Below are positions 867 to 62,990 of a stretch of 64,000 nucleotides of DNA, piece after piece. The stretch's first letter is position 1; each line of letters begins with the position of its first letter. A program made the translations under genes and the position numbers. The DNA lies in contig NC_084461.1 in assembly GCF_027409185.1 (NCBI RefSeq), positions 233,632,999-233,696,998 on the forward strand, in the 5' to 3' direction. This stretch comes from Cynocephalus volans (lineage: Eukaryota > Chordata > Mammalia > Dermoptera > Cynocephalidae). Below the pieces are notes generated by a model. It was not told the origin of the DNA and did not search any database. It saw only the letters and a program-made list of their open reading frames with translations.

Positions 867-972
867 GGCCAGTTAGCTCATCTGGGAGAGCATGGTGCTG
901 ATAATACCAAGATCAAGGGCTCAGATCCTCGTACTGGCCACCCGACCAAAAAAATCCCCCAAAACAAAAAAA
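867..972 (+). mobile_element. tRNA-Ile-derived SINE, monomer (CYN-like)
   Basis: The head starts ggccagttagctca and ends gtactggcca, matching the layout of a tRNA-Ile with A and B boxes, and is followed by an A/C-rich tail. An 11-bp target-site duplication with one mismatch (ggtcattttca at 851-861, ggccattttca at 973-983) brackets it. Several mutations in the tRNA part and the lack of cloverleaf integrity argue for a retroposon, not a tRNA gene. Confidence 0.85.
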
Positions 973-3474: not shown

Positions 3475-3801
3475 GCTGACCCTCCCTATCTGTGGTTTCC
3501 ACCATCTGTGAATTCAACCAACCACAGATCGAACATATTAGAAAAAATAAAAGTAATAATGATACAATAAAAATAATACAAATAAAAATACAATATAACA
3601 ACTATATACACAGCATTTACATTGTATTGTGTTAGGTATCATAAATAATCTGGAGATCATTTAAAATATACAGAAGGATGTGCATAGCTTATATGCACAT
3701 ACTACATCATTTTATAAAATAAATCTGAGCACATGAATTTTGGTATCTGTGGGGCGTCCTGGAATCAATCTCCTGTGGATACTGAGATACGACTGTATTC
3801 C
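3475..3801 (-). mobile_element. Tigger-type MITE (MER2-like)
   Basis: The ends read as inverted repeats: 'gaccctccctatctgtgg' at the left and 'tcctgtggatactgagat...gactgta' at the right. The interior matches the AT-rich MER2 body I know (non-autonomous TcMar-Tigger). It sits inside an antisense L1 that resumes at 3802. Confidence 0.75.
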
Positions 3802-6828: not shown

Positions 6829-7334
6829 TACAGTAGTCCTCCCCTTATCCACCTGAAATGAGAATACATTTCAAGATCCCCAGTAGATGCCTGAAACCAT
6901 GGATAGCACCAAACCCTATATATACTATGATTTTCCCATACATACATACCTATGATAAAGTTGGGTTTATAAATTAGGCACAGTAAGAGATTAGCCAATA
7001 ATAATATACAAAAATTATAACATTATACTATAAGTAAAATAAATGTTACTTGCATAAGGATTGTGATACTGTGAGTTGATCTAGCTGACATGGCTACTAA
7101 GTGACTAATGGATGGGTAGTATATATAGAGTGGATATACTGGACAAAGGGATGATTCATGTCCCAGGTAGGATGGAGTGGGAGAGTGTGAGATTTCATCA
7201 TGCTACTCAGAATGATGCATAATTTAAAACTTATGAATTGTTTCTTTCTGGAATTTTCCATTTAATATTTTCAAACTACAGTTGACCATGGGTAACTGAA
7301 ACCATGGAAAGGCAAACTGTGGATAACCGTGCTA
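6829..7334 (+). mobile_element. Tigger-type non-autonomous transposon (MER44-like)
   Basis: The element has terminal inverted repeats: left 'cagtagtcctccccttatcc' and right '...ggataaccgtgctactg'. The interior is typical of the Tigger family ('atgcctgaaaccatggata', 'cttatgaattgtttctttctgg'). It is inserted in antisense L1 ORF2 next to TA dinucleotides, as expected for Tc/mariner elements. Confidence 0.7.
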
Positions 7335-15984: not shown

Positions 15985-16060
15985 GATAGGGGTTGTCTTT
16001 GTTCACACTGTATCCCCAGTGCTTGCACACACTGGCTGCGCAGTAAACATTTCTTGACTT
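15985..16060 (+). mobile_element. L2 3' end fragment
   Basis: 'gtatccccagtgcttgcac' and 'gcgcagtaaacatttcttga' resemble the L2 3' end. It lies at the DYDC2-side edge of the CpG island. Confidence 0.45.
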
Positions 16061-16553
16061 AATCAGTGAGGGCCCAGAAAAGGGCTCCTGCTCCCTCGGA
16101 TCCATCAGTGCTCACTCTGGCACTAATTCCCTCAATCAACCTTTGCTGAGTCCTCTCCTGCCCGGCACTGACCAGCCCGTAAGTTAGAACACGGGAAATG
16201 AGAGCAGAGAATTGGGCACAGACCGCTAGGCGGGGGAAGACTGCGACCGCTGGGGCCTGGACGAGGTCGGACGGCTTCCTGGAGGCGGGGGCGCCTGAGA
16301 TGGCTCTGAAAGGAACCGAGCAGAAGTCCTCAGCAAGTGCAACGGCGCGGAATCGTGACACCGCCGAGCCAGGGAGCCTGCGACGACGGTCTCGCAGGGA
16401 CTCGGGGCCTTTCCCGTCCTCCCCTGAAGTCCGCTGCCCCCTCATTCCTCCCACAACACGCCGGCCTGCCAGCCGGGTTCCATGGCCCTTTGCCGCCGGC
16501 CCCTCCTCTCTGTCGCTCGTGCACCCTCCAGGCCCCGCGCGCCCCCCGCTCAC

Positions 16554-16613
16554 CCTTCCGCGCCGCGTGTTCTTCACCGCGCGTCTGCTGTGGCGCCTGC
16601 CGCGCGGGCGCTC
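16554..16613 (-). other. Candidate DYDC2 non-coding exon 1
   Basis: On the minus strand, cggaagg|gtgagc places a donor at 16553-16552, next to the X-box. The transcription start is unknown. Confidence 0.25.
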
Positions 16614-16626
16614 GTTGCCGAGCAAC
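16614..16626. promoter_or_regulatory. RFX X-box motif
   Basis: GTTGCCGAGCAAC fits the X-box consensus (GYNRYC, 1-3 bp spacer, RRNRAC) with a 1-bp spacer and a near-perfect palindrome. RFX factors drive cilia genes through this motif. It lies in the middle of the shared promoter of two DPY30-domain genes, one of them axonemal by homology. Confidence 0.75.
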
Positions 16627-16796
16627 GGGACGCGACTCCCGGATGCAGCGCAGGCGCGCCGGACGCGCGCGCTCCGAGAAGGCGGGAGCCTCTTCGAGAG
16701 CTGTTCGTCTCCGTGTCGTTGGGCTCGGGCGGGCAGAGACGGTTCTGACGGTTGGACCCTGCGAGTGGCGTTGGACCCGGCGGCAGCGGGCGGTTG
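16627..16796 (+). other. Candidate DYDC1 non-coding exon 1
   Basis: A donor-like GGTTG|gtgagc at 16797 would end a 5' UTR exon just downstream of the X-box. The start is not defined. It is based on position and donor sequence only. Confidence 0.3.
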
Positions 16797-16900
16797 GTGA
16801 GCGGCGGCAACCTGCGGGCTCCGCGTCGGCCTCTCCGCGGACGCCGGTGGGAAAGCAAACCCGAGTGCCCAGGGCGGCGGGTGGCGGGTAAATACTGCAT

Positions 16901-17439
16901 GCCCCGCTTAATGTGAATTTCAGATAAGCGAGTTACTTTCTAGTAGGACTACAGCATACGACTAGGTTATTTGTTGTTTATCTGAAATTGAAATTAAACC
17001 CTGTGTGGTGCCCTGTTGTTTGCTCAACCCGGCACCCCTGCCCGGCCCGGCTCCGCTCCTTTCCCAGTTGCCCGCCGGCTCCCTCCCGGGCGTGGGCAGG
17101 AGGCCTCCTTCTGTCTTTTGCAGCCACATCTTCAGGCTGGGGGCAGCTTTTTCTGTGGGAAAAGGCTTTCTTATGTTGAGCCTAGTGCTTATTATATGAG
17201 AGATAACTTACAACAGGAGAGAGAGGCATTGTCGTCATTTTATGGTCAGGAAACATGCTAAGCGATTTGACGAGCTTCACCTGGGTCCCAACGATGGGCC
17301 CAGAAATCCGAGACCGATCTTCAACTTGGCCCGACTCTTAGGCCAGGGGACAACTGTCCCCTTTCCATAGTTTATCTTTCTGATGCAGCAGCAGCAGTCT
17401 GTTCCCCTTTTTATGTTACTTCACTTCAGATAACATCGA
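16901..17439. other. DYDC1 first intron: unassigned
   Basis: Flank of the CpG island with declining GC content and a short CAG run at 17384-17397. No exon or repeat recognised. Confidence 0.4.
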
Positions 17440-20492: not shown

Positions 20493-23400
20493 GTAAGTAT
20501 GGATCTACTTTAAGGAAATTAGGAGAGTAAAATAATTAGTTCAACAAGTCTGATTTTTTAAAAAGTTCAATATTGTTATTTCTTTCTGTTATAAAAATGT
20601 TTATTATACAAACACTTGGACAGCATGAAAAAGCAGAAAGGAGAAAACAATACTCAAGAAGACTTCTATTTACATTTTTAGGTATTTTCTTCTATGTGTA
20701 ATCTTTTTTCTTCACTTTAGTCTGTAGATTATTTTTTACGTATTTAATTTTTGGCGGCTGGCTGGCATGGGGATCTGAACCCTTGACCTTGGTGTTACCA
20801 ACATCGCACTCTAACCAACTGAGCTAACTGGCCAGCCCTGTAGATTATTATTATTTTTTATGTACTTGTAATTATATTCAATGTATAATTTTAATTTTGT
20901 GCTCTTTGTTCAAATAAAACACACATATCCCCAAATTATTATATAGTTTCCAAATGGATAGACTATAATTTACTTAACCCTTTTCCTATTGTTGGTGATT
21001 AAGATGCTTTCAGGATTGTTTTTACAAATTGTTTGGTCTCTTACAAGTAATGTACTATTCTTTTAAACAATGCTAGCAACAAAAGGAAATGGCCGAGTTG
21101 GAGCGTGAAAGAGAATTAGCTCTGATGGAGCAAGAAATGATGGAGAGGCCCAGAGAAAAGGAGATCTTGTTCCAGCAGGTGAGACAAATTGGAGAGTTCA
21201 GAGGTGACTGAAGTCAGTGGTGTCAACCTTGATGTGGAACTACCCAAATGCTGAAAAACTCCAGCTCTTGTTACTTAGATATGGCTCTCTATCATCTTCA
21301 TCTTTATGTATATGTTTTCTTTGCTGGAGAAGCAGCAGCGATGAGGTAAGAGGACAACTCAGAGTGTGTCCTGTCATGGAAGCTGAGGTGAAAGAGCATT
21401 TGTAGACCTCAGTGGTCAACCATATTTATTGCTGAACTGAAAAGTGTTCCTTCAAGTCACTGGCAATTTGATGGGAGCAGTGAGGGTGGAATGGTGGGGA
21501 TGGGATGGGTTAAGCAGGGGAAATGGAAAGTGTAGGTAACATTTTCAAGGAAGTTTTGAAGGAAGAAGAGATGTTTTTTGATTTAGGAACATGTAGGCAG
21601 GAGTGGGACATTAGGAAGTGCAGGGGATGATTCATTGAGTCAGCTTTCCATGGACAAGAGGAAATGGGATCTAGAATGTAGTTAGGCAGGTAGAAGGGCA
21701 CTTCTTTGATAGATTGTGGCACCAGGCCATAATGAATGGATTAAAAATGGTGGTGATGGGCATGGTTTGTAGGGCTTTGAAAGGACAGTGGATGAGAAGG
21801 TTAGTCTCTCTCTCTGCTCCACTATTTTCTGCCATGTGAGACCCTGGGCCACCACCAAGATCCTCACCAGATGTGTTCCTTGACTTTGGACTTCCTAGCC
21901 TCCAAAACTGTAGGCAATAAATTTTGTTTTCTTTATAAGTCACCCAGTTCCAGGTATTTCGTTATAAGCAACAGAAAGGGACTAATACACAGAGGGAGAG
22001 AGGAGAGGATGGCATAGGTACATGTGGGTATGTAGGTTTCATGGCACAAAGTTGGAAGTAGCTTCTGTGCAACTATTTCTATCTTTTTTGTGAGGTAGGG
22101 ACCATGACCATCTGCCAAGAATTAGGTGATAAGGTAGGAGGCATAGGGAGAGTGGTGAAGGTTTGAAATGGTGGGTTTGGAGAAGGGAAGAGAGAGTGGA
22201 CCAAGAAAACATGGCATTACTTAGTAGCAGTTGGAGACCAAGTATTCATAATGGTGCCATTTGATTTTGTCATGTAATTATGTGACTTTCTTCACTTATG
22301 CCTAGATATCTGAGTAAAGATGCAGAGAAGGCATACTGTTTGATAGAAATAGATTTGGGGTAGCAGGATTGGGAGCTGAAGATGTTGGTAAGGGAATGAT
22401 TGAAGGGATGGGTCATGGAGTATAGGCTGGATGGGGAAACTTATGGAGTGGCTTCTCAACTAAATTTATGGAGAGCTTCTAGTCTAAATTTAAGCCACAT
22501 CTATAATTTTATCATATAGTATTTAATTTTATAGTCTCGACTTAAGTCCACACATTTTAAAAAGGGAAGGAAGCCTGTTGTTTGGATGCATAGATAAAAA
22601 GAAAAATGTAGAACTGGCAAATAGTTTCTCTGACTAATCTCTCATCCTTGATATTAAGGTAGGAAATTCTAGACACCTCAGATAGATAGAATGATTGAAA
22701 ACTCTGCGGCTTCTGAGTCTTCATTTTCAGTCATTTGCTTATTCTTGAGGGGAAGTTGCAAAGTGTTGAGTTGGGTGTCAAACTATCATCCAAATAGGCA
22801 AGATGGAGGGGCTGAAGGACCCCCAGCCCAGGCCATTTCCCACCACTTAGAGAGGCCCAAGAGCCACCGGGCCCACACACCCTGAGTCAGCAGTGCTGGA
22901 ACAGGAAGGCACTGTGGGACCCTCAGCCCAAGCTAGTCCCCACTGCCCAGAATTGGCAGTGCCTTCAGGATCCAGGCCAACATCAGGGTGGAATGAGGAG
23001 ACCATGATACCCCCTGCCACAATGACTAAACACCAAAGGAAAGATACCAGGAATATGAAAAATCAAGAAAGTACATAACCACTAAAGGAAAATAATAACT
23101 CTCAAGCTCTAGATCCTATAGAACAGGAAGTCCTTGAAATGACTGACAAGGAATTTTGAGCAACAATTTTAAAGAAACTAAATGAGATACAATAAAACTC
23201 AGTTAGACAACACAGTGAAATGAGAAAAAATATACAGGACCTGAAAGAAGAAATACACAAAGAAATCAATGTCCTGAGAAAGAATGTGGCAGAGCTTGTG
23301 GAGCTGAAGGATTCATTCAACAAAATAAAAAACACAACAGAGAGTCTAACCAGCAGGCTAGAACAAGCAGAAGAGAGAATTTCTGAGCTTGAAGACAGGC

Positions 23401-26400
23401 TGTTTGAATTAACACAGGTGGACCAGAAAAAAGAATTTACAAAATTGAAGAAAATCTAAGTGAGATAACAGACAACCTTAAGCGCTTTAATATCCAAATT
23501 ATGGGCATTCCAGAAGGGGAGGAAAAAGGAAATGCCATTGAAAACATATTCAATGAAATAATAACAGAAAACTTCTTGGGTATAGGGTAAGTCACAGATC
23601 TTCAGATTCAGGAGGCCAAAAGATCCCCAAACATATTCAACCCAAAAAAGTCATCTCCAAGGCATGTTAAACTCAAACTGGCAAAACTCAAAAACAGAAA
23701 ATATTAAAAGCTGCAAGAGAGAAGCAGCACGTCACCTATAAGGGAGCCCTAATCAGACTAACCTCAGACTTTTCATCAGAAACCCTAAAAGCCTGAAAAG
23801 AATGGGATGATATATTCATAACACTAAAAGATAAAAATTGCCAGCCAAGAATATTTAACCCAGCAAAGCTGTCCTTCCAAAATGAAGGACAAATAGTATA
23901 TTTCTGAGGCGAAAACTGTGGGAGTTCACTACCACATGACCAGCCTTACAAGAAATTCCCAAGGGAGTACTGGGTTTGATACCTGAAAACAACCATCACT
24001 TCCATGAATACTCAAGAAAGAACAAAACCAAGCAGTAAAACAAAAATGCTAGCAATAAAGAGAAAAAATAGTTTACCATCCCAAGAAACCAAAAAAACAC
24101 AGAAGACAAACGGAAAATCAGAAAGAAAGGAACAAAAAGTACTTAAGACATCTAAACAAAAATCAATAAAATGCTAGAAGTAAATCAACATCTTTCAGTA
24201 ATAACTCTAAATGTAGAAGGATTAAATTCCCCACTCCAAAAACAGAGACTGACTGGATTAAAAAGATGGACTCAACAATATGCTGCCTTCAAGAGACTCA
24301 CCTCACCCGTAAAGACACACAGAGACTAAGAACGAAAGGATGGAGAAAGACATACCATGCAAACAGAAGTGAAAAATGAGCTGGAATAGCTATTCTTATA
24401 TCAGATAAAATAGACTTTAAAGCAGAAACCATTAAAAGAGATAAAGAAGGCAACTATGTAATAATAAAAGGATCTATCCATCAAGAAGACATAACAATCA
24501 TAAATACATATGCACCCAATATCAGAGCAGCCAGATTTATAAAGCAAACATTATTAGATCTAAGAATGAGATAGACACTAACACCATAATAGTGGGGGAC
24601 CTGAACACCCCACTCTCAATATTGGACAGATCATATAGGCAAAATTTAATAGAGAAACACAAGATCTAAACAACACTTTAGACCAATTGAACTTGGCAGA
24701 ACATTTATGGAACATTCCATCCAACAACCTCACAATACTCATTCTTCTCATCAGTACATGGAACATTTTTCCAGAATAGACCATGTGTTAGGTTACAAAG
24801 CAAGTCTTAAGATATTCAAAAAAATTGGAATTATTCCATGTATTTTTTCAGATCACAATGGATTATGATTAGAAATCAATAACGAAACTGTGGAAACTGT
24901 ACAAACACATGGGAATTAAACAACATTCTTCTTAATGACATATGAGTCAAAGAAGAAATTAAACAGAAACTCAAAAAAATTATTGAAACTAATGAAAACA
25001 ATGATACATCATACCAAAACCTGTGGGATACTGCAAACGCAGTACTAAGTGGGAAATTTATCGCATTAAATGCTTACTTCAGAAGAATGGAAAGATGGCA
25101 AGTAAACAACCTAACACTTCACCTTAAAGAACTAGAAAAACAAGAACAATCCAAATCCCAAATTAGCAGACAGAAAGAAATAAGATCAGAGCAGAGCTAA
25201 ATGAAATAGAAACCTGAAAAATGATACAAAAGATTAGTGAAACAAAAGTTGGTTTTTGAAAAGATTAATAAAATTAACAAACCATTAGCAAAGCTAACTA
25301 AAAAAAAGAAGACTCAAATAACAAAAATTAGAAATGAAACAGGTGATATTACAACTGATACTTCAGAAATACAAGAAATACTTAGAGACAACAGCAAAGT
25401 GTATGCTAACAAATTTGAAAATCTGGAGGAAATGGATAAATTTCTGGGCACATACAAACTGCCAAAACCGAGCCAAGAAGATATAGAAAATCTGAACACA
25501 CCAATAACAATAAAAGAGATTGAGGCTGTTATCAGAAGGCTCCAAACAAAGAAAAGCCCAGGACCGGATGGGTTTGCTTCAGAATACTACCAAACCTTCA
25601 AAGAGGAATTGATACCACTTCTGTACAAACTGTTCCAAAAGATTGAAACAGAGGCCATTCTCCCAAACTCATTCTATGAAACAAACATCACCTTGGTACC
25701 AAAACCAGACAAAGATACAACAAAAAAGAAAACTATAGGCCAAGATATTTGATGAATATAGGCGCAAAAATCCTCAATAAAATACTAGCTAACAGAATAT
25801 GGCAACACATACACAAAATTGTACACCACGATCAAGTGGGATTCATCCCAGGGATGCAAGGTTGGTTCAATATACGCAAATCAATAAATGTGATACACCA
25901 TATCAATAAAATCAAACACAAGGACTATATGATCATCTCTATAGATGCCAAAAAAGCATTTGACATTCGTTCACGACAGAGTCTCTACAAGTTAGGTATC
26001 GATGGAAAGTATCTCAACATAATTAAAGCCATATATGATAAGCCCACTGCCAATATCATTTGGAATGGGAACTAGACAAGCATCCCCACTCTCGCCACTC
26101 CTATTCAATGTAGTGTTGGAAGTACTAACCAGAGCAATCAGAGAAGAGAAGGAAATAAACGGCATCCAGACTGGAAAAGAAGTCAAACTGTCCCTGTTTG
26201 TGGATGACGTGATCCTGTATATCAAACAGCCTAAAGCCTCTACAAAAAACCTCTTAGAGTTGATGAATGATTTCAGCACAGTAGCAGGATACAAAATCAA
26301 CACACAAAAATCAGTAGCATTTCTATACTCCAATAGTGAACATGCAGAAAGAGAAATCAAGAAAGCTACCCCATTTACAATTGCCACCAAAAAAATAAAG

Positions 26401-49991: not shown

Positions 49992-52442
49992 AATTTTTTT
50001 ATTTTTTTTACTTATTTTTATTTTTATTTTTTTAAATTTTATTTTGCCGATATACATTGTGGCTGATTATTGCTCCCCATCACCAAAACCTCCCTCCCTT
50101 CTCCCCCCCCAACAATGTCCTTTCTGTTTGCTTGTCATATCAACTTCAAGTAATTGTGGTTGTTATATCTTCTCCCCCCCCCCCCCGGTTTTGTGTGTGT
50201 GTGTGTGTATGAATTTATATATTAATTTTTAGCTCCCGCCAATAAGTGAGAACATTTCTCTTTCTGTGCCTGACTTGTTTCACTTAGTATAATTCTCTCG
50301 AGGTCCATCCATGTTGTTGCAAATGCCAGTATTTCATTCTTTTTTATACCTGAGTAGTATTCCATTGTGTAGATGTACCACATTTTCCGTATCCACTCAT
50401 CCGATGATGGACATTTGGGCTGGTTCCAACTCTTGGCTATTGTAAAGAGTGCTGCGATGAACATTGGGGAACAGGTATACCTTCGACTTGATGATTTCCA
50501 TTCCTCTGGGTATATTCCCAACAGTGGGATAGCTGGGTCGTATGGTAGATCTATCTGCAATTGTTTGAGGAACCTCCATACCATTTTCCATAGAGGCTGC
50601 ACCATTTTGCAGTACCACCAACAGTGTATGAGAGTTCCTTTTTCTCCGCAACCTCGCCAGCATTTATCGTTCATAGTCTTTTGGATTTTAGCCATCCTAA
50701 CTGGGGTTAGATGGTATCTCAATGTGGTTTTGTTTTGCATTTCCCGAATGCTGAGTGATGTTGAGCATTTTTTCATATGTCTGTTGGCCATTTGTATATC
50801 TTCCTTAGAGAAATGCCTACTTAGCTCTTTTGCCCATTTTTTAATTGGGTTGCTTGTTTTCTTCTTGTAAAGTTGTTTGAGTTCCTTATATATTCTGGAT
50901 ATTAATCCTTTGTCAGATGTATATTTTGCAAATATTTTCTCCCACTCTCTTGGTTGTCTTTTAACTCTGTTAATTGTTTCTTTTGCTATGCAGAAGCTTT
51001 TTAGTTTGATATAATCCCATTTGTTTATTTTTCCTTTGGTTGCCCGTGCTTTTGGGGTCGTATTCATGAAGTCTGTGCCCAGTCCTATTTCCTGAAGTGT
51101 TTCTCCTATGTTTTCTTTAAGAAGTTTTATTGTTTCAGGGTGTATATTTAAATCCTTAATCCATTTTGAGTTGATTTTAGTATACGGTGAGAGGTATGGA
51201 TCTAGTTTCATTCTCCTGCATATGGATATCCAGTTATCCCAGCACCATTTGCTGAAGAGGCAGTCCCTTCCCCAGTGAATAGGCTTGGTGCTTTTGTCAA
51301 AGATCAGATGGCAGTAAGTGTGTGGGTTGATTTCTGGATTCTCTATTCTATTCCATTGGTCAGTGTGTCTGTTTTTATGCCAGTACCATACTGTTTTGGT
51401 TATTATAGCTTTGTAGTATAGCTTAACGTCAGGTAGTGTTATGCCTCCAGCTTTATTTTTTTTTGCTCAGCATTGCTTTGGCTATGCGTGGTCTTTTATT
51501 GTTCCATATCAATGTCTGGAGAGTTTTTTCCATTTCTGAGAAAAATGTCTTTGGAATTTTGATGGGGATTGCATTGAATTTGTATATCACTTTGGGTAGT
51601 ATGGACATTTTCACTATGTTGATTCTTCCAATCCAAGAGCATGGGATATCTTTCCATCTTCTTGTATCCTCTCTAATTTCTCTCAGCAGTGGTTTGTAGT
51701 TCTCATTATAGAGATTTTTCACCTCCTTGGTTAACTCAGTTCCTAAGTATTTTATTTTTTTGGTGGCTATTGTAAATGGGCAGGCTTTCTTGATTTCTCG
51801 TTCTGCATGTTCACTATTGGAGAAAAGAAATGCTACTGAATTTTGTGTGTTGATTTTGTATCCTGCTACTGTGCTGAAATCATTTATCAATTCTAAGAGT
51901 TTTTTTGTAGAGGTTTTAGGCTGTTCAATATATAGGATCATGTCATCTGCAAACAGGGACAGTTTGACTTCATCTTTTCCAATCTGGATGCCCTTTATTT
52001 CCTTCTCTTCTCTGATTGCTCTGGCTAGTACTTCCAACACTATGTTGAATAGGAGTGGTGAGAGTGGGCATCCTTGTCTAGTTCCTGTTCTTAAAGGAAA
52101 AGCTTTCAGCTTTTCCCCATTCAGGATGATATTGGCAGTGGGTTTGGCATATATGGCTTTAATTATGTTGAGATACTTTCCCTCTATACCTAACTTATAG
52201 AGGGTCTTTGTCAAGAATGAGTGGTGTACTTTATCAAATGCTTTTTCAGCATCTATAGAGATGATCATATGGTCCTTGTGTTTAAGTTTATTAATATGGT
52301 GTATCACATTTATTGATTTGCGTATGTTAAACCAACCTTGCATCCCTGGGATGAATCCCACTTGATCATGGTGAATAATTTTACGTATGTGTTGCTGTAT
52401 TCTGTTTGCTAGTATTTTAGTGAGGATTTTTGCATCTATATT
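49992..52442 (-). mobile_element. L1 3' copy (second unit of the tandem)
   Basis: Contains RT from '[11 protein letters not shown]' to the ORF2 end plus the 3' UTR. It has two long frames: 52361-51453 (302 aa, with the FADD box at 51953-51942) and 51211-50222 (329 aa). It is broken by an extra T in the homopolymer near 51457 and a 7-bp deletion near 50250. The truncation point reads gcatctatattc. Confidence 0.88.
50169..50213. repeat. C-run + (GT)n tract in L1 3' UTR (tandem copy)
   Basis: About 14 C, then ggttttgtgtgtgtgtgtg; on the L1 sense strand this is (AC)n followed by a long G run. The same arrangement recurs at 52610-52648 in the other copy. Confidence 0.85.
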
Positions 52443-52609
52443 CTTTTTTTTTTTTTTTAAATTTTATTTTGTCGATATACATTGTAGCTGATTATTGCTC
52501 CCCATCACCAAAACCTCCCTCCCATCTCCCTCCCCTCCTCCCCCCCAACAATGTCCTTTCTGTTTGCTTGTCGTATCAACTTCAAATAATTGTGGTTGTT
52601 ATATCTTCT

Positions 52610-52664: not shown

Positions 52665-55600
52665 TTAGCTCCCTCCAATAAGTGAGAACATGTGGTATTT
52701 CTCTTTCTGTGCCTGACTTGTTTCACTTAATATAATTCTCTCAAGGTCCATCCATGTTGTTGCAAATGGCAGTATTTCATTCGTTTTTATAGCTGAGTAG
52801 TATTCCATTGTGTAGATGTACCACATTTTCCGTATCCACTCATCTGATGATGGACATTTGGGCTGGTTCCAACTCCTGGCTATTGTAAAGAGTGCTGCAA
52901 TGAACATTGGGGAACAGGTATACCTTCGACTTGATGATTTCCATTCCTCTGGGTATATTCCCAACAGTGGGATGGCTGGGTCGTATGGTAGATCTATTTG
53001 CAATTGTTTAAGGAACCTCCATACCATTTTCCATAGAGGCTGCACCATTTTGCAGTCCCACCAACAATGTATGAGAGTTCCTTTTTCTCCGCAGCCTCGC
53101 CAGCATTTATCGTTCATAGTCTTTTGGATTTTAGCCATCCTAACTGGGGTTAGATGGTATCTCAATGTGGTTTTGATTTGCATTTCCCGGATGCTGAGTG
53201 ATGTTGAGCATTTTTTCATATGTCTGTTGGCCATTTGTATATCTTCCTTAGAGAAATGCCTACTTAGCTCTTTTGCCCATTTTTTAATTGGGTTGCTTGT
53301 TTTCTTCTTGTAAAGTTGTTTGAGTTCCTTATATATTCTGGATATTAATCCTTTGTCAGATGTATATTTTGCAAATATTTTCTCCCACTCTCTTGGTTGT
53401 CTTTTAACTCTTTTAATTGTTTCTTTTGCTGTGCAGAAGCTTTTTAGTTTGATATAATCCCATTTGTTTATTTTTCCTTTGGTTGCCCGTGCTTTTGGGG
53501 TCGTATTCATGAAGTCTGTGCCCAGTCCTATTTCCTGAAGTGTTTCTCCTATGTTTTCTTTAAGAAGTTTTATTGTCTCAGGGTGTATATTTAAATCCTT
53601 AATCCATTTTGAGTTGATTTTAGTATACGGTGAGAGGTATGGATCTAGTTTCATTCTCCTGCATATCGATATCCAGTTATCCCAGCACCACTTGCTGAAG
53701 AGGCAGTCCCTTCCCCAGTGAATAGGCTTGGTGCCTTTGTCAAAGATCAGATGGCAGTAAGTGTGTGGGTTGATTTCTGGATTCTCTATTCTATTCCATT
53801 GGTCAGTGTGTCTGTTTTTATGCCAGTACCATACTGTTTTGGTTATTATAGCTTTGTAGTATAGCTTAACGTCAGGTAGTGTTATGCCTCCAGCTTTATT
53901 TTTTTTGCTGAGCATTGCTTTGGCTATTCGTGGTCTTTTATTGTTCCATATAAATGTCTGAATAGTTTTTTCCATTTCTGAGAAAAATGTCTTTGGAATT
54001 TTGATGGGGATTGCATTGAATTTGTATATCACTTTGGGTAGTATGGACATTTTCACTATGTTGATTCTTCCAATCCAAGAGCATGGAATATCTTTCCATC
54101 TTCTTGTATCCTCTCTAATTTCTCTCAGCAGTGGTTTGTAGTTCTCATTATAGAGATTTTTCACCTCCTTGGTTAACTCAATTCCTAAGTATTTTATTTT
54201 TTTGGTGGCTATTGTAAATGGGCAGGCTTTCTTGATTTCTCTTTCTGCATGTTCACTATTGGAGAAAAGAAATGCTACTGATTTTTGTGTGTTGATTTTG
54301 TATCCTGCTACTGTGCTGAAATCATTTATCAATTCCAAGAGTTTTTTTGTAGAGGTTTTAGGCTGTTCGATATATAGGATCATGTCATCTGCAAACAGGG
54401 ACAGTTTGACTTCATCTTTTCCAATCTGGATGCCCTTTATTTCCTTCTCTTCTCTGATTGCTCTGGCTAGTACTTCCAACACTATGTTGAATAGGAGTGG
54501 TGAGAGTGGGCATCCTTGTCTAGTTCCTGTTCTTAAAGGAAAAGCTTTCAGCTTTTCCCCATTCAGGATGATATTGGCAGTGGGTTTGTCATATATGGCT
54601 TTAATTATGTTGAGATACTTTCCCTCTATACCTAACTTATAGAGGGTCTTTGTCATGAATGAGTGCTGAACTTTATCAAATGCTTTTTCAGCATCTATAG
54701 AGATGATCATATGGTCCTTGTGTTTGAGTTTATTAATATGGTGTATCACATTTATTGATTTGTGTATGTTGAACCAACCTTGCATCCCTGGGATGAATCC
54801 CACTTGATCGTGATGAATAATTTTTCGTATGTGTTGCTGTATTCTGTTTGCTAGTATTTTAGTGAGGATTTTTGCATCTATATTCATCAAGGATATCGGC
54901 CTGTAGTTTTCTTTTTTGGTTATATCTTTACCTGGTTTTGGTATCAGGATGATGTTTGCTTCATAGAATGAGTTTGGGAGATTTGCGTCCGTTTCAATCT
55001 TTTGGATTAGTTTGTAAAGAATCGGTGCCAATTCCTCTTTGAATGTTTGGTAAAATTCTGCTGTGAATCCATCTGGTCCTGGGCTTTTCTTTGTTGGGAG
55101 CCTTCTGATAACAGATTCAATCTCCTTTATTGTTATTGGTCTGTTCAAATTTTCTACGTCTTCACGGTTCAGTTTTGGGGGCTTGTGTGTGTCCAGAAAT
55201 TTATCCAGTGCCTCCAGATTTTCAAATTTTTGGCGTATAGTTGTTTATAGTAGTCTCGAATGATTCCTTGTATTTCAGATGAATCAGTTGTAATATCGCC
55301 TTTTTCATTTCTAATTTTTGTTATTTGAGTCTTCTCTCTTCTTTTTTTTGTTAGCCATGCTAATGGTTTGTCAATTTTATTTATCTTTTCAAAAAACCAA
55401 CTTTTTGATTCATTGATCTTTTGAATTGTTTTTTGGTTTTCAATTTCATTCAGTTCTGCTTTGATCTTAATGATTTCTTTCCGTCTGCTAACTTTAGGTT
55501 TGGATTCTTGTTTTTCTAGTTCTTTGAGGTGATGTGTTAGGTTGTTCACTTGCCATCTTTCCATTCTTCTGAAGTGAGCGTTTAATGCAATAAATTTTCC

Positions 55601-56486
55601 CCTCAATACTGCTTTTGCAGTATCCCACAGGTTTTGGTATGATGTATCATTGTTTTCATTAGTTTCAATAAACTTTTTGATTTCCTGCTTGATTTCTTCT
55701 TGGACCCATATGTCATTAAGTAGAATGCTGTTTAATTTCCATGTGTTTGTATAGTTTCCAGAGTTTTGTTTGTTATTAATTTCTAGTTTTAATCCATTAT
55801 GGTCTGAGAAGATACATGGGATAATTCCAATTTTTTTGAATTTATTGAGACTTGATTTGTGACCTAATATGTGATCTATCCTGGAGAATGATCCATGTGC
55901 TGATGAGAAGAATGAATATTCTGAGGTTGTTGGGTGGAATGTTCTGTAGATATCTGCCAATTCCAATTGGTCTAGAGTCTTGTTTAGATCTTGTGTTTCT
56001 CTACTGATTCTTTGCCTAGATGATCTGTCTAATATTGATAGTGGGGTGTTCAGGTCCCCTGCTATTATGTTATTAGTGTCTGTTTCCTTCTTTAGGTCTA
56101 ATAGAGATTGTTTTATAAATCTGGCTGCTCCAACATTGGGTGCGTACATATTTATGATTGTTATGTCTTCTTGATGGATCAGTCCTTTTATCATTACGTA
56201 GTGTCCCTCATTGTCTCTTTTTATGGTTTTTAGTTTAAAGTCTTTTTTGTCAGATATAAGAATAGCTACTCCTGCTCGTTTTTCTTTTCTGTTTGCATGG
56301 TAAATCTTTTTCCATCCTTTCCCTCTTAGTCTGTGTGAATCTTTATGGGTGAGGTGGGTCTCTTGTAGGCAGCATATAGTTGGGTCCTCCTTTTTGATCC
56401 AGTCAGCCAGTCTGTGTCTTTTGATTGGGGAATTTAAGCCTTTTACATTGAGTTGTTATTGAAAGGTGTTGATTTATTCCTAGCAT
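52665..56486 (-). pseudogene. L1 ORF2 (endonuclease-RT), two frameshifts
   Basis: Starts at ATG 56486. A frameshift after about ten codons (near 56449-56455) takes it out of frame. The endonuclease frame then runs open to a second frameshift at about 55227-55234 in the linker before RT. From 55148 to 52665 an 827-codon frame holds the RT ([31 protein letters not shown] at 54395-54384) and the Cys-rich C-terminus. Total length would be about 1,270 codons, usual for L1. Neither frameshift is shared with the tandem copy, which does not cover these regions. Confidence 0.88.
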
Positions 56487-56673
56487 TTTATTGGTTGTTT
56501 GGTTGTCTTAGGTGTCTTTTGTTCCTTGCTTTCTGATTTACTGTTTGGTTTCTGTGTTTGTTGGTTCCTTAGGTTGTAGATAGCGTTTTTGTTTGCTTGT
56601 TTTCTCTTCATGAATGCCATTTCTATTATACTAGTGTGTATTGATTTTTCTTGTGTTTTTATGGCAGTGGTAG

Positions 56674-57672
56674 TTATTTTTCAGGAACCAAACCCAGTAC
56701 TCCCTTGAGGATTTCTTGTAAGGGTGGTCGTGTGGTAGTGAACTCCTGTAGTTTTTGTTTGTCTGAGAAAAATTCTATTTGCCCTTCATTTCGGAAGGAT
56801 AGCATTGCAGGGTAGAGTATTCTTGGCTGGCAATCTTTGTTTTTTAGTATTTTGAAAATATCATCCCATTCCTTTCTAGCCTTTAGGGTTTGTGATGAAA
56901 AGTCTGATGTTAGCCTGATTGGGGCTCCCTTATAGGTGATTTGATGCTTCTCTCTTGCAGCTTTTAAGATTCTCTCTTTGTCTCTGAGTTTTGCCAATTT
57001 GACTATGACATGTCTTGGAGAAGGCCTTTTTGGGTTGAATATGTTTGGAGATTGTTGAGCTTCCTGGATCTGAAGATCTGTGATTTTTCCTATACCTGGG
57101 AAGTTTTCCATCACTATTTTGTTGAATATGTTTTCAATGGAATCTCCATTTTTCTCCCCTTCTGGAATACCCATGACTCGGATATTTGAGCGCTTAAGGT
57201 TGTCTGATATCTCTCTCTGATTTTCTTCCATGTCCTTGATTCTTTTTTCTTTCTTTTTGTCTGCTTGTGTTATTTCAAACAGCCCATCTTCAAGTTCAGA
57301 GGTTCTCTCTTCAACTTCAACAAGCCTGCTGGTTAAACTCTCCGTTGTGTTTTTTATTTCGCTGAATAACTTCTTCAGTTCAGTAAGTTCTGCTACATTT
57401 TTTTTCAGGACATTGATTTCCTTGTACATTTCCTCTTTCAGATCCTGTATACTTTTCCTCATTTCATCATGATGTCTAGCTGAGTTTTCTTGTATCTCAT
57501 TCAGTTTCCTTAGAATTATCACTGGAAATTCCTTGTCAGTCATTTCAAGGGCTTCTTGTTCTATAGGATCTAGAGTTTGAGATTTATTAACTTTTGGTGG
57601 TTTACTTTCTTGATTTTTTGTATTTCTGGTATCTTTTTTTTGGTGTTTATTCATTGTGGCAGGGGGTTTCAC
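56674..57672 (-). CDS. L1 ORF1 protein, intact
   Basis: The frame has 332 codons with no stop, plus TAA/TAG at the end. In order: a basic N-terminus (MNKHQKKDTRN at about residue 7), a coiled coil (about 50-150; DLKEEMYKEINVLKKNVAEL), an RRM-like domain (about 155-250; NIRVMGIPEGE, the conserved 'RHVIVKLAK') and the C-terminal domain (AREKHQITYKGAPIRLTSDF). ORF1p is an RNA-binding trimer that coats L1 RNA for retrotransposition. Two candidate starts exist (codon 1 and codon 7); the second matches the older L1 at 23024. Full length and open, which points to a recent insertion. Confidence 0.88.
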   Translation of the reverse strand: MKPPATMNKHQKKDTRNTKNQESKPPKVNKSQTLDPIEQEALEMTDKEFPVIILRKLNEIQENSARHHDEMRKSIQDLKEEMYKEINVLKKNVAELTELKKLFSEIKNTTESLTSRLVEVEERTSELEDGLFEITQADKKKEKRIKDMEENQREISDNLKRSNIRVMGIPEGEKNGDSIENIFNKIVMENFPGIGKITDLQIQEAQQSPNIFNPKRPSPRHVIVKLAKLRDKERILKAAREKHQITYKGAPIRLTSDFSSQTLKARKEWDDIFKILKNKDCQPRILYPAMLSFRNEGQIEFFSDKQKLQEFTTTRPPLQEILKGVLGLVPEK

Positions 57673-59198
57673 AGTCCACCGGTTTGAGACTAATGACTAA
57701 CTAGGATGTTGCTGTGGTTGCCAATTTGGTATGGCTCCCTCCGTGACTGCTCAGTTGGCCTCTAGTGCCTTGTGTGTGTGGTTGTCTCGGGTCTTGGGCT
57801 TCTCCGGGGAGCCACCTTTCTGGTCAGCTTGGACTCTGCTGGGCTGGTAGATCACGTACCACAGGGTGTGTGATCTCTGTTGAGCTTTCACTTCCTGTGC
57901 AGGACTTCTCCCTGTTCCTGTGCTCTGGCCCAGGCTGTTGGATCGTGCAGTGACGACCCCACAGGGTTTCTGTCGAGTCTCCGCCTCCCTGGCCCCACGT
58001 CTCCCCACTCTGTGTGCACTGTGCTGGGCTGGGGTGTGTCTTCTGCAACCCTTGTCTATCAGCTGGGCCTTCAAGACCCTGCTCGGCACTGCCTCACTCA
58101 GGAAGTCTCCCAGGTTTCTGGTAGGCACAGATGACCAGTTGCTCTGGGTGCCTTTGTAGCACTGTGTAGATCTTTCTCGGGACTTGTTCACCTTTGTATC
58201 CCCCCGGCATAGACCGAATCTAGCGCCCACCTGCAGCCAGCTCTCCGGCAGGTTCAAGCGGACCTGGGAACTCTCCTACCACACTATTCCCAACCAGAAT
58301 TTGGTTAGGTGTTTTTCTGAACTGGTGGCCGCAGAGAATGTATCTGCCTCCCAGTAACAGGACGTTTACCGGAGGCCGGAGTCCAGGGTGTGGTGGAGTG
58401 ACTGTCGTCCTGCCCGTACTTCCTTGCCCTCCCGACACTGGCCGAAGACGCCCCACGCCACCAGCCCCGCCAGAGAACCGCGGAGGGGGTGGGACGGGAG
58501 GCTTTCCCGCAGGCTCTGGAAAGCCCCGTGCCAGGCCAAGCAAGTGGGAAGGCTCAGTGACATCCGAGTCGGGCGGAGCTGCCAGCACCTGGGAAAATGG
58601 AGGCGGCCCCGGGGCGGTGAGTGAGTGAACCGGTGATGCAGGCGGGAGCCGGGTGGGCGTCAGCCGTCCGTCCAGGGCTTGGCCAGGGGTCACTCACAGG
58701 GCTGTGCCAGGTCGGTCGCTCACTCTCTGCCTCTGGTTTGCCGCCTTCCCCATTCTCGGCCGCTGCCGCCTTGGGCTGTTCAGTCGCGGCACAGCTCGGG
58801 CGCTCCTAGGGATATTCTTTAATGCCAGCCTGAAACCTCGAATCCTGAATAGGGCAGCTGGCCGCCTTCAGCGCGGCCCCGGCCTCTGGGATCCTGTCTG
58901 CATCCACAGCAGCCCTGGTGCCGTGTTCCCTGTTTCGAGACTCGCTTTTGCAGCTAAGAAACAGTTCTTTTCCTGCTCCACACTTCAAAGCTGTTGCCTG
59001 TAAGTGAGGCAGCCTCTCCTGCCAGGGGCAAAGTGGCGGTCACTCCCCATGACCGGCCAGCAGCTGCGGTCCTCCCTTAAGAGATGGCAAGAGGAAGGTC
59101 CACAAGTTTCTCAGCTGCCTGAGGCCCAGTGGCCGCCTTTTCCACCTCAGCTACTCCATGCCAGCCTCCGCAGCCGCCGCCATCTTGAAAAACCTGGG
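57673..59198 (-). promoter_or_regulatory. L1 5' UTR/promoter, GC-rich
   Basis: About 1.5 kb of GC- and CpG-rich leader. At the 5' edge it has 'caagatggcggcggctgc', matching the YY1 site found at the start of active L1 promoters. Open frames here on both strands (up to 168 aa) show no domain and look non-coding. Confidence 0.75.
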
Positions 59199-59211: not shown

Positions 59212-59328
59212 TCTAATCAGTTAGGCTGTGTCTTTTGAATAGGGAGTTTAATCCATTTATGTATAGGGTTGTTATTGACAGGTATTGCTTTACTCCTGAC
59301 ATTATATTTCTTTTCATTTAGGTGTTTT
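59212..59328 (-). mobile_element. Old L1, second piece (ORF1-ORF2 spacer)
   Basis: Continues the host L1 broken at 49978 ('tctaatcagttaggctgtgtc', 'gtttaatccatttatgtat'). The next insertion cuts it again at aaatatcatttgttct (59329-59344). Confidence 0.85.
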
Positions 59329-59344
59329 AAATATCATTTGTTCT

Positions 59345-61729
59345 GAGATCCAATCAAGATGGCAGAATAGACGGTCCGCAGCATCATGCTCTCCCACAAA
59401 TCAACCAAATTTACAGCTATAAAAATGTAACATCAACCAAGCTGGGGCCGCTGGAGCTCAGGGGAAGAGGAGGAGAGACCTACCAAGTTCATGAAGGTGG
59501 GAGAAACTACGATGAGAGAAAGAAAAAGCTGCTCTGAGCATTTCGGGCCATGGCTGCTTTAAGGCTCAAGCTGCTGAGCACATGGAGCTGGAGCCGGCAG
59601 AAGCCACAGTTGTGCCCTTCAGATGGAGTTACTTGGCGGCGGTAGGGGAGAAGAGGACCCTGGTGGCCCCCAGGACAGCAAAACCACTAATAGGGTTCAC
59701 GTGGACCCACGCATGAGTGAGGAGCCAGAACAACTGAAAAGAGGGAGCCACTCAGAGGCTGGTGAGTCATCACAAGGGACCAGTGCAGGGCCCGTTGCAT
59801 GGGAAATATTTGGAGCACGGGTGGTGGGGGAGACAGGCCCACCGGGGGAACACTGGGACACAGCAAGGACAGCTGACCTGCTCTCCAATCAGCACAGGAC
59901 CACTCAGAGGAGACTGGTCAGGAATGCAGAATTGCATGGGGTGCAGTTTGATGAAAAAACTCAGGCCCAGATCAGGGATTCTACAGAACACAGATCCACC
60001 AGGTCTCCAGAGAGCCAGAAGTACCTATAAGGTCAACCATTAAACCCTGAGCTGCACAAAAAGCCTTCCCTAGGGAAACAGCAGCAAAGTAGCAATTTAA
60101 ACAACCACACAGCTGAAGTCCTGGTTCCCACAGGAAGTTCCCCTGTGTTAGAAGCAAAGGACAAAAAATTAGTTCTGGCCCAGGCACACCACCAGCACCT
60201 TGGGGCCTGCTTGGGAACTGGAGGCTTGGATCTGGGGACCAGACCCCACTCCCACTTCCAGGCAAACTGCATCAGTGCCTCGGGGCCAGCCTGGGGACCT
60301 GAAGCATGGAGAAGGGGACTGGACCCCCCTCCCACAACCAGGCATACCATGCCAGCACCTTGGGGCCTGCCCAGGGACCCGAAGCAAGGAGAAGGGGAAC
60401 AGACCTCTCTCCCACAACCAGGCACACTGAGCCAGCGCCTTGGGGCCCACCCAGGGATCCGGGGTATGGACTCAGGGACTGGACCTCTCTCCCACAACCA
60501 GGCACAACATGCCAGCACCTCAGAGCCCACCCAGGGACCCGGGGCATAGAGAAGGGAATTGGACCTCTCTCCCATAACCAGGCACACTGCACCAGTGCCT
60601 CAGCACCTGCCTGGGACCCAAGGCATGGAGAAGGGGACTGGACCTCTCTCCGACAACCAGTCACACCATGCCAGTACCTCAGGGCCCACCCAGGGACCCA
60701 GGGGATGAAGAAGGGGACCGGACCTCTCTCCCACAACCAGGCACACCAAGCCAGCACCTTGAGTCCCACCCAGTGACCCAAGGCATGGAGCCAGGAGCCA
60801 GACCCTCCTCCCACAACAAGGCACACCATGCCAGTACCTTAGGGCGCACCCAGGGACCCAAGGAGAGGAGAAAGGGACTGGAACTCTCTCCGACAACCAG
60901 GGACACCGTGCCAGCACCTTGTGGCCCACCTGGCCCAGAGGCATGCAGAAGGGGACTGGACCCTCTTCCCACACCAGGCACAAAACACCAGCACCTCAGG
61001 GCCCACCTGGGTACACGAGGCATGGAGAAGGGGACCGGACCCTCCTCCCACAACCAGGCACACTGTGCCAGTACCTCAGGGCCCGCCCAGGGACTCGGGA
61101 CATGGAGAAGGGGACTGGACCCCTCTCCCACAACCAGGCACATGGTGCCAGTGCCTTCAGGCCTGCCCAGGGACCAGAGGCATGTAGAAGGGTACCAAAC
61201 ACACCCTACAACCAGGCATACCGCCAGTGCCAAGGAGCATGCCAGAAACAGCACCTCCACGTGGGTGGCCCACCACAGCCACCACAGTAACCATGGCTGC
61301 TGCAAAAGCGGCTAGATGCCACAGCCACCACACAGATGGTCCACCAGACACTGGAGTGCATTCACATAAGAAGAGTCACCAGCAGAGACAAAGGAAAGAA
61401 GAGGATGTCTCATTCCACAAAACCCATTTCAGAGTGACAGAAGCATCTGCTCTATGATAATATTGGGGGACCTGATCACATCTCTCAGCATTGGACAGAT
61501 CATCTAGGCAACAAGTTAACAGAGTAATGGTTATTCTTTCAGAAGGAGAGAAGAAATCTAGGGCAATTACAGGGGGGAGGGGAGAGACTGGACAAGGGGC
61601 CTAAAGAAGAATTACGATTTGTAACAATATATATGCTAGTAATATTGATTTAATCAACATATCTCAATGTTCAACCCCCAAAATATGTATAATCGATTTT
61701 GATTCAATAAATAAAATAAATTAAATAAT
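59345..61729 (+). mobile_element. SVA-like non-autonomous retrotransposon with 80-bp VNTR
   Basis: A 2,385-bp insert bracketed by a perfect 16-bp duplication, aaatatcatttgttct (59329-59344 and 61730-61745). In order: (1) leader 59345-60177 starting with a YY1-like caagatggcagaatagac, resembling an L1 5' UTR; (2) about thirteen 80-bp tandem units, 60202-61234; (3) 61235-61458, GC-rich CCACC-type sequence then A-rich leader sequence; (4) 61459-61525, about 65 bp matching L1 ORF2 endonuclease (gggggacctgatcacatctc, cattggacagatcatctagg); (5) a 3' part with aaaatatgtataatcgat and an A/T-rich end with AATAAA (61705-61710). It has no ORF of its own. It was probably mobilised by L1 in trans. Confidence 0.82.
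60202..61234 (+). repeat. 80-bp VNTR, about 13 units
   Basis: Unit pattern: gggcccacccagggacccg, g-gcatggagaaggggactg, gacctctctcccacaaccag, gcacaccatgccagcacctc. Units start at 60202, 60282, 60362, 60442, 60522, 60602 and 60681, so the period is 80 with hardly any indels, while substitutions vary from unit to unit. 80 is not a multiple of 3, so the overlapping frames are chance. Confidence 0.93.
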
Positions 61730-61899
61730 AAATATCATTTGTTCTTTTCTTCCCCTTTTATTTTTCATCTTTGATTTTAGCTGGATTTTTGAGGTGATGT
61801 GATTTAGCTTCTTTCTCTTTCACATTTGCATTTTGTTTTAACGTTTGCTCTTTTTTGTAAATCCATGATAGTGATTATTGTTTTTCAGATTCCAGATGC

Positions 61900-62830
61900 A
61901 GGACTCCTTCGAGTGTTTCTTGCAGGGCTGGTTGTATGGTAGTGAACTCCTATAATTCTTGTTTGTCCGGGAAATATTTCTATTTGTCCCTCATTTCTGA
62001 AGGTTAAGCTTGCTGGATATAGAGTTCTTGCCTGGCAATTTTTATCTTTTAGTATTTTGAATATATCATCCCATTTTTTTTCTGACTTATAAGGTTTCAG
62101 TTGAGAAGTCTGCTGTTAGTCTGATGGTGGCTCCCTTATAGTAACTTGATGCTTTTCTCTTGCTGCTTTTAGAATTTTCTCTTTGTCTTTGAGTTTTGAC
62201 AGTTTGACTACAGTGTGTCTTAGAGAGGATCTTTTTGGATTGAATCTGTTTGGGGATCTTTGGGCTTCTAGGATCTGAAAGTCTGCATCTCTCCCTATAC
62301 CCAGGAGGTTCTTTGCTGTTATTTCCTTGAATAGGTTTTCTCCTCCCCTTCTGGAATACCCATGATTCCGATATTTGTGTGCTTGAGGTTGATTGCTAGC
62401 TCTCTTAGATTTTCTTCATTTTTTAAAATTCTTTTTTTCTTTTTTCTGTCTTCCTGGATTATTTCAAAAAGGCCGTCTTTGAGGTCTGAAATTCTTTCTT
62501 CTGCTTGCTCTAGCCGGCTGCTCAAGCTTTCTGTTCTGTGTTTTATTTCATTGAGTGAATTTTTCAGTTCTAGGAGTTCTTTTACATTCTTTTTTAAGGT
62601 ATTAATCTCTTTATAAATTTCCTCCTTCATGTCCTGGATATTTTTTCTTCTTTCATTGTGTTCTCTAATTGATTCTTATTTCTCTGAGTTTCCTTAAGAT
62701 CAGTGCTCGGAATTCTTTTTTCAGATATCTCAAGGGTTTCCTACTCTATGGGGTCTGGTACTTGAGAATCACCGTATTCCTTCAGTGGTGTCATATCTTC
62801 TTATTTATTTGTAGTTCTAGTATTTTTTTG
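61900..62830 (-). pseudogene. L1 ORF1 pseudogene
   Basis: Coiled-coil frame 62630-62319 (103 aa) ending MGIPEGEE, then frameshifts through the RNA-binding and C-terminal domains. Part of the old L1. Confidence 0.8.
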
Positions 62831-62990
62831 TTGATGTTTGGTCATCTGGTAGGACACTAGTTTCTTCTATTACTCTGGAGTGGGCTATGAGGGGAAAGAC
62901 TTCCTCCTCTATTTGTAGGCTCTGCTGGTGACTCTTCTTGTATCAGTGCAATTCAGTATGTGGTGGGCTGCCATGGCTCCTGCTCAGTCA

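Follow-up and report, generated by a model that had tools for sequence, protein, structure and literature searches.

The element at positions 59345-61728 (+) of the analysed window, i.e. the whole stretch of 64,000 nucleotides, is with a probability of roughly 0.87 one copy of a large non-autonomous family originating from the internal deletion of L1, which may be termed an L1 SIDE by analogy with the internally deleted LINE derivatives of other lineages. In its proposed architecture, an L1-type 5'UTR endowed with its own 80-bp VNTR would have been fused, near the start of ORF1, to about 71 bp of the ORF2 endonuclease region, which is followed by an L1 3'UTR. The first of the two resulting junctions recurs at 7,128 places of the genome.

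Insertion site and modular organisation

The host of the insertion is an older antisense L1, whose 5'UTR end and ORF1 align at 61738-62966 (-) and resume at 59343-59204 on the other side of the element. The flanks at 59328-59344 (+) and 61729-61745 (+) form an exact 17-bp direct repeat; its length is given as 16-17 bp because the first T is shared ambiguously with the 3' tail. The perfect 16-bp target-site duplication (TSD) claimed in the original prediction is thus present at both element ends. The segments 62845-61738 and 59343-59204 match adjacent parts of a further L1 in the window. Joining the flanks, with the repeat counted once, gave a sequence of 1,241 bases which aligned over its full length, as one alignment, to this further L1, with 72% identity and 61 gap columns in total, and insertion with target-site duplication is therefore concluded.

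The 5' leader (59345-60179, +) starts with AAGATGGC, a YY1-like motif recognised by eye, which also begins the young L1 of the window and which we take to be the YY1 site of L1 5'UTRs. An L1-type leader with such a motif had been predicted; the start motif is indeed there, but alignment of the rest of the leader, as well as of the VNTR, revealed no L1 match within the window, and the 5'UTR of the young L1 in the window did not match the element either. Since an autonomous L1 parent was not found, the probable L1 origin of leader and VNTR is argued from their position and from the start motif. The young L1 itself is nearly complete and extends over 52665-59190 (-), with an ORF1 frame open for 340 aa from stop to stop and ORF2 divided over two overlapping frames. 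A second L1 3' part (50013-52443), 97% identical, adjoins it.

The VNTR (60180-61234, +) is composed of about 13.2 units of 80 bp. TRF reported 80-bp units in 12.0 copies at 60234-61192, and the array between unique flanks measures 1056 bp, corresponding to 13.2 units and in agreement with the thirteen or so originally announced. Its size varies from 3.3 to 23.2 units among 17 copies, the window copy included. Units were compared by index in 16 of these 17 copies, one with fewer than six units being left out. Counted from the 5' end, units 1-3 are 91, 88 and 84% alike across copies, while units 4-6 are 79-81% alike, close to the value of random pairs (77%). At the 3' end, the last three units are 85, 82 and 80% alike, and conservation is less clear because the last unit compared with the last but one also reaches 84%. 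The likeness between units is 77.1% within one copy versus 77.4% between copies, and there is therefore no sign of recent homogenisation. The 5'UTR of the old L1 (62970-63220, -) has a tandem unit of its own, estimated by eye at ~108 bp and differing from the 80-bp unit found in the element.

The VNTR is followed by the end of an L1 5'UTR (61235-61456, +), which runs approximately to where the start codon of ORF1 would lie. Within it, 61341-61443 aligns to 62966-62864 with 74% identity, and the latter segment stops 18-19 bases short of the start of ORF1 in the old antisense L1, a start located by alignment to the young L1. The homology to the old L1 extends to 61448, about 8 bases short of junction 1 (61456-61457, +), whose left boundary is thus approximate. 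This junction connects the 5'UTR to a fragment of the L1 ORF2 endonuclease (61457-61527, +), which aligns to three L1s of the window: with 82% identity over 73 columns to the ORF2 at 24586-24657, and more weakly to 49658-49586 and 56068-56012. Against these three the fragment shows a net loss of two bases, that is, a frameshift. The endonuclease origin previously attributed to this piece is retained, while its length is corrected from 65 to about 71 bp. Junction 2 (61525-61536, +), common to 30/30 aligned copies, leads into a 3'UTR module of L1 type that includes a G-rich polypurine tract (61536-61700, +), of which the parts 61574-61644 and 61594-61662 match 46026-45958 (-), downstream of an L1 ORF2, and 15194-15129 (-). 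The element ends with an A/T-rich tail of AATAAA type (61701-61728, +), recognised from the sequence and from the alignment of copies; the A-rich 3' end expected from the outset is accordingly rich in AATAAA and AAATA, and not a pure poly(A).

When the ORFs of the window's L1 were used as tblastn queries, the element returned only ORF2 residues 127-152, as two weak pieces with an E of 0.013 each, all other ORF2 rows having an E of 0.74 or worse. No ORF1 row was obtained at E up to 10, and no RT was found in the element with the same queries. This leaves standing the claim that ORF1, RT and almost all of ORF2 have been lost.

Other features of the window include two tRNA-like Rfam matches at 867-940 (+) and 20759-20833 (-), whose sequence is shared with other spots of the window and which probably represent a tRNA-derived SINE family. 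No 7SL/Alu match was recorded in the window at the Rfam gathering threshold, and this, together with the two tRNA-like hits, fits a colugo origin of the sequence. A GC-rich stretch at 16059-16932 has long open frames on both strands and is possibly the CpG island or promoter of a gene.

Copies across the genome and mode of insertion

A genome search with 61440-61729 gave 2,998 candidates, of which 40 places were scored, the window's own copy counted in; all 40 cover at least 281 of the 290 bases with 90-100% identity and contain both junctions. A 30-base pattern of junction 1, searched with up to three mismatches, occurs at 3,538 + 3,590 = 7,128 places of the genome, against 0 for the reversed control. 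The figure of 7,128 is a pattern count, 30 copies having been aligned and 20 examined with their flanks. The 30 aligned copies are those of the 40 matches which have loci, and both junctions are common to all of them. A family was expected in advance to show dozens of copies agreeing in their junctions and differing in their TSDs, and this is what the 40/40 scored places, the 30/30 aligned copies, the 7,128 places and the distinct TSDs described below amount to; the junctions, far from being unique to one locus, recur genome-wide. A one-off insertion, originally left as an alternative, is ruled out by the 40 scored places and the 7,128 junction-1 places. A separate genome search, in which the old L1 served as query with its ORF1 and the end of its 5'UTR, gave 44 matches, all of them relatives of the old L1 (40 scored of 6,445 candidates).

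The 20 flanked regions are the matches ranked directly after the window copy and, being chosen by match rank, they and the divergence values lean to the relatives of that copy. Fifteen of them begin at nt 1-12 of the element, one matches from nt 247 and four are cut inside the VNTR. The length from the 5' end to the 3' module ranges from 1,585 to 3,179 bp in 15 copies, and tblastn with E up to 1e-8 detected ORF1 or ORF2 inside the element in 0/20 flanked copies. Divergence from the majority averages 5.0% in the leader (range 3.4-10.2%; 16 copies, CpG sites left out) and 6.5% in the 3' module (30 copies, with some flank and tail bases included). The mammalian substitution rate is about 2.2 per 10^9 sites per year. 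The leader divergence, for copies picked for their likeness to the window copy, would thus correspond to some 20-25 million years. Variants common to 4 to 13 of the 30 copies were observed; some of these co-occur in L021, L023, L025 and L026, which probably constitute an older subgroup.

Two individual loci have a more complex structure. In L022 (G000:C11:133377826-133381110), which is outside the 20 regions, the 3' module is bordered left and right by ORF2 pieces, suggestive of an insertion into an L1. L043 (G000:C2:212487200-212494500) is 5'-truncated and has a foreign, LTR-like stretch (by eye) within the VNTR.

Repeats at the flanks score at least 9 in 11 of the 16 copies with a complete leader, versus 26 of 240 mismatched pairings; chance matches between A-rich flanks raise these pairings to scores as high as 15. 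Five of the 21 copies were left out of this test, as they have no complete leader. Another five, among the 16 tested, score below 9, and one of them (L044) has a separate exact 17-bp repeat, which was overlooked because the start had been set too late. The clear TSDs are 9-18 bp long, and some appear to start at T-rich/A-rich cuts of L1 type. In L032 (G000:C1:119374700-119382000), an exact 18-bp TSD is separated from the 3' module by ~93 extra bases, with AATAAA among them. This extension looks like a 3' transduction, and as such would point to a read-through transcript of polymerase II. Taken together, TSDs, 5' truncations and A-rich tails fit target-primed reverse transcription by L1, with L1 as the likely helper.

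Near the former ORF1 start, an ATG opens a frame of 17 codons (61454-61507, +), delimited in the alignment of 30 copies. It reads ATGATAATA in 27/30 copies, 26 of which keep the 17-codon frame. Singleton changes are as common within the frame (1.30%) as elsewhere (1.29-1.81%), but sites with a variant in at least two copies are rarer, being 3/54 inside and 74/340 outside (one-sided p 0.002). After the exclusion of CG/TG/CA sites, the same contrast becomes 2/34 versus 39/230 (p 0.07); when the variant must occur in at least 3 or 4 copies, p amounts to 0.021 and 0.019, respectively, for all sites, and to 0.36 and 0.21 without CpG-type sites. This contrast was noticed during exploration and was not preset, and it fades once CpG-type sites are removed; selection on the frame is taken as a lead and no more.

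Proposed origin and spread of the deleted lineage

In the mechanism proposed here, RNA polymerase II would start at the 5' end of the element from an internal promoter of L1 type, as the start motif and the recurrence of one 5' end among the copies suggest. The resulting non-coding RNA, of about 1.6-3.2 kb, would take the proteins of full-length L1s in trans and would reach new sites through target-primed reverse transcription, whose footprints are seen in the TSDs, the 5' truncations and the A-rich tails. Mobilisation is presumably performed by L1 proteins, in view of the L1-type 3' end, the TSDs and the tails. The deletions probably arose via template switching or DNA deletion and not by splicing, and the deleted form would then have spread as a lineage of its own, in line with the shared frameshift and the group-shared variants.

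A recurrent origin of SpIRE type, in which the copies arise repeatedly from spliced full-length L1 mRNAs and each is a dead end, would also give identical junctions and the L1 order of modules, and human SpIREs of one type reach 116 copies (PMC5860796). Moreover, on its left side the first deletion is delimited only approximately: the homology to the old L1 ends at 61448, to the left of junction 1, and a GT follows in that L1 a few bases further on. However, the net frameshift of the endonuclease piece, common to the aligned copies, is impossible in a working ORF2. As a frameshifted L1 could not make ORF2, the piece must have changed in a lineage which was no longer coding, and the sharing of the frameshift therefore indicates descent from such a lineage and not the repeated splicing of working L1s. 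In L028, two further bases are missing from the endonuclease piece, besides this common frameshift. As regards the boundaries, in the L1s of the window the right end of the first removed stretch has no preceding AG, while the second removed stretch starts without GT and ends without AG; with splice signals missing at three of the four boundaries, template switching or deletion is more likely than splicing. The two separate deletions would, in addition, both need to be introns, and both the 7,128 junction places and the variants shared in groups speak against repeated splicing. A recurrent spliced origin is thus very improbable, and the SpIRE-like one-off suggested in the original prediction is disfavoured by the same shared frameshift and the same three boundaries.

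The element had been described at first as an SVA-like composite. Its layout of 5' module, VNTR and 3' module, with a presumed L1 helper, agrees with that description, but a composite nature is not supported: the testable modules are all L1, in L1 order and orientation, and an internally deleted L1 is therefore preferred over a fusion of different repeats. A true composite of the SVA or LAVA kind, in which a non-L1 promoter or transcript supplied the leader and VNTR and was combined with pieces of L1, would be compatible with L1 mobilisation and family spread, and to this extent overlaps with the internally deleted L1. It draws on the fact that this leader and VNTR were not encountered in a full-length L1, that the 5'UTR of the young L1 in the window gives no match, and that a different tandem unit (by eye) is present in the 5'UTR of the old L1. 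On the other hand, what follows the VNTR shows homology to the final stretch of an L1 ahead of ORF1, and AAGATGGC opens both the leader and the window's young L1; a composite origin is consequently regarded as unlikely. The AATAAA-rich tail, which is not pure poly(A), could recall a helper from another LINE clade, but the L1-type 3' module and the clear TSDs of 9-18 bp, some of them apparently at T-rich/A-rich cuts, argue against it and make a helper other than L1 the least probable of the explanations weighed.

A bolder version of the internally deleted L1 lineage is offered as a tentative and rather doubtful proposal. According to it, the L1 SIDE would have moved past cis preference to reach thousands of copies, its GC-rich VNTR would have converged on the role of the VNTR of LAVA, namely attracting the L1 machinery in trans, and the endonuclease scrap would be kept as a short translated frame, at the former ORF1 start, for the loading of ribosomes onto the RNA.

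Relation to known non-autonomous retrotransposons

SIDEs have been described from Drosophila R2/R1, from T. brucei and Anopheles (PMC3414825), and from CR1 in Lepidoptera (PMC6740152), with TbRIME, Ag-Sponge and the CR1 elements Persaeus and Zenon as named examples (PMC6740152). A 2012 paper states that no L1 SIDE had been observed and offers cis preference as the explanation (PMC3414825): on this account, the strong bias of L1 proteins towards the RNA which encodes them has kept L1 from producing an internally deleted family such as R2 has (PMC3414825). The present family resembles SIDEs in that LINE ends are apparently joined by internal deletion, proteins are not encoded, copies are multiple and spread is thought to occur via the machinery of the parent. 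Coding capacity is lost, with no ORF1, ORF2 residues 127-152 only and ORF matches in 0/20 regions. Separate insertion of multiple copies is evident from the 7,128 places, from the TSDs of 11/16 copies and L044, and from the 5' truncations. As for the LINE ends, the 5'UTR end, the endonuclease scrap and the 3'UTR match L1 in order and orientation, the leader and VNTR being unmatched. It differs from the R2/R1 SIDEs in its parent type, a mammalian L1, as well as in its long VNTR, its endonuclease scrap and its 7,128 junction places.

A protein-less L1 derivative at 7,128 junction places would contradict the reported absence of L1 SIDEs, and would provide a natural experiment on which part, whether 5'UTR, VNTR or 3'UTR, frees an L1 RNA from cis preference. 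No account of such a family, or of any L1 SIDE, was found in the open-access literature; Repbase, Dfam and subscription journals were outside the scope of the search, and a prior repeat annotation is possible. Colugo, Galeopterus, Cynocephalus and Dermoptera are absent from the main text of a comparison of mammalian L1 chimeras (PMC13174262), and the available portions of PMC9141288 and PMC1764860 contain nothing on such a family.

Among L1 derivatives, HAL1 is likewise a non-autonomous family, but it keeps ORF1 and encodes ORF1p (PMC5753468), whereas the element is without ORF1 and RT; HAL1 is ruled out, as tblastn found no ORF1 in the element or in the 20 regions. SpIREs originate from spliced mRNAs and are generally dead ends (PMC5860796). 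The element is similar to them as an L1 missing an internal stretch, and differs in that three of four boundaries have no splice signals in the L1 homologues of the window and that the family was amplified; a spliced L1 is held unlikely on account of these missing signals and of the shared frameshift.

The nearest parallel in layout is with SVA and LAVA, which also have a 5' module, a GC-rich VNTR of variable length, a 3' module and a presumed L1 helper, and the number of VNTR units is variable here too (3.3-23.2 units in 17 copies). Membership of SVA/LAVA is not supported, as no Alu-like part was found at the Rfam gathering threshold and TRF reported no CT hexamer array at the element. In the alignments within the window, the 3' module matches an L1 endonuclease piece and an L1-type 3'UTR, and these alignments brought up neither SINE-R (HERV-K) nor the LAVA 3' part (U1-Alu-U2-L1ME). 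The units are 80 bp long, compared with 36-49 bp in SVA/LAVA (PMC7353768). According to PMC4432496, VNTR composites are confined to hominoid primates. The present family would be the second case of a VNTR retrotransposon among mammals, seemingly independent of the first. The VNTR of LAVA has conserved units at both ends and an unordered middle (PMC4432496), a pattern which is clear at the 5' end here and weaker at the 3' end. Domain swaps in LAVA indicate that the VNTR determines the efficiency of mobilisation (PMC4432496), and the same role may be hypothesised for the VNTR of the present family. In retaining its first units while its middle is scrambled, this VNTR behaves like that of LAVA, and the part played by the VNTR in SVA and LAVA could thus be tested by comparison.
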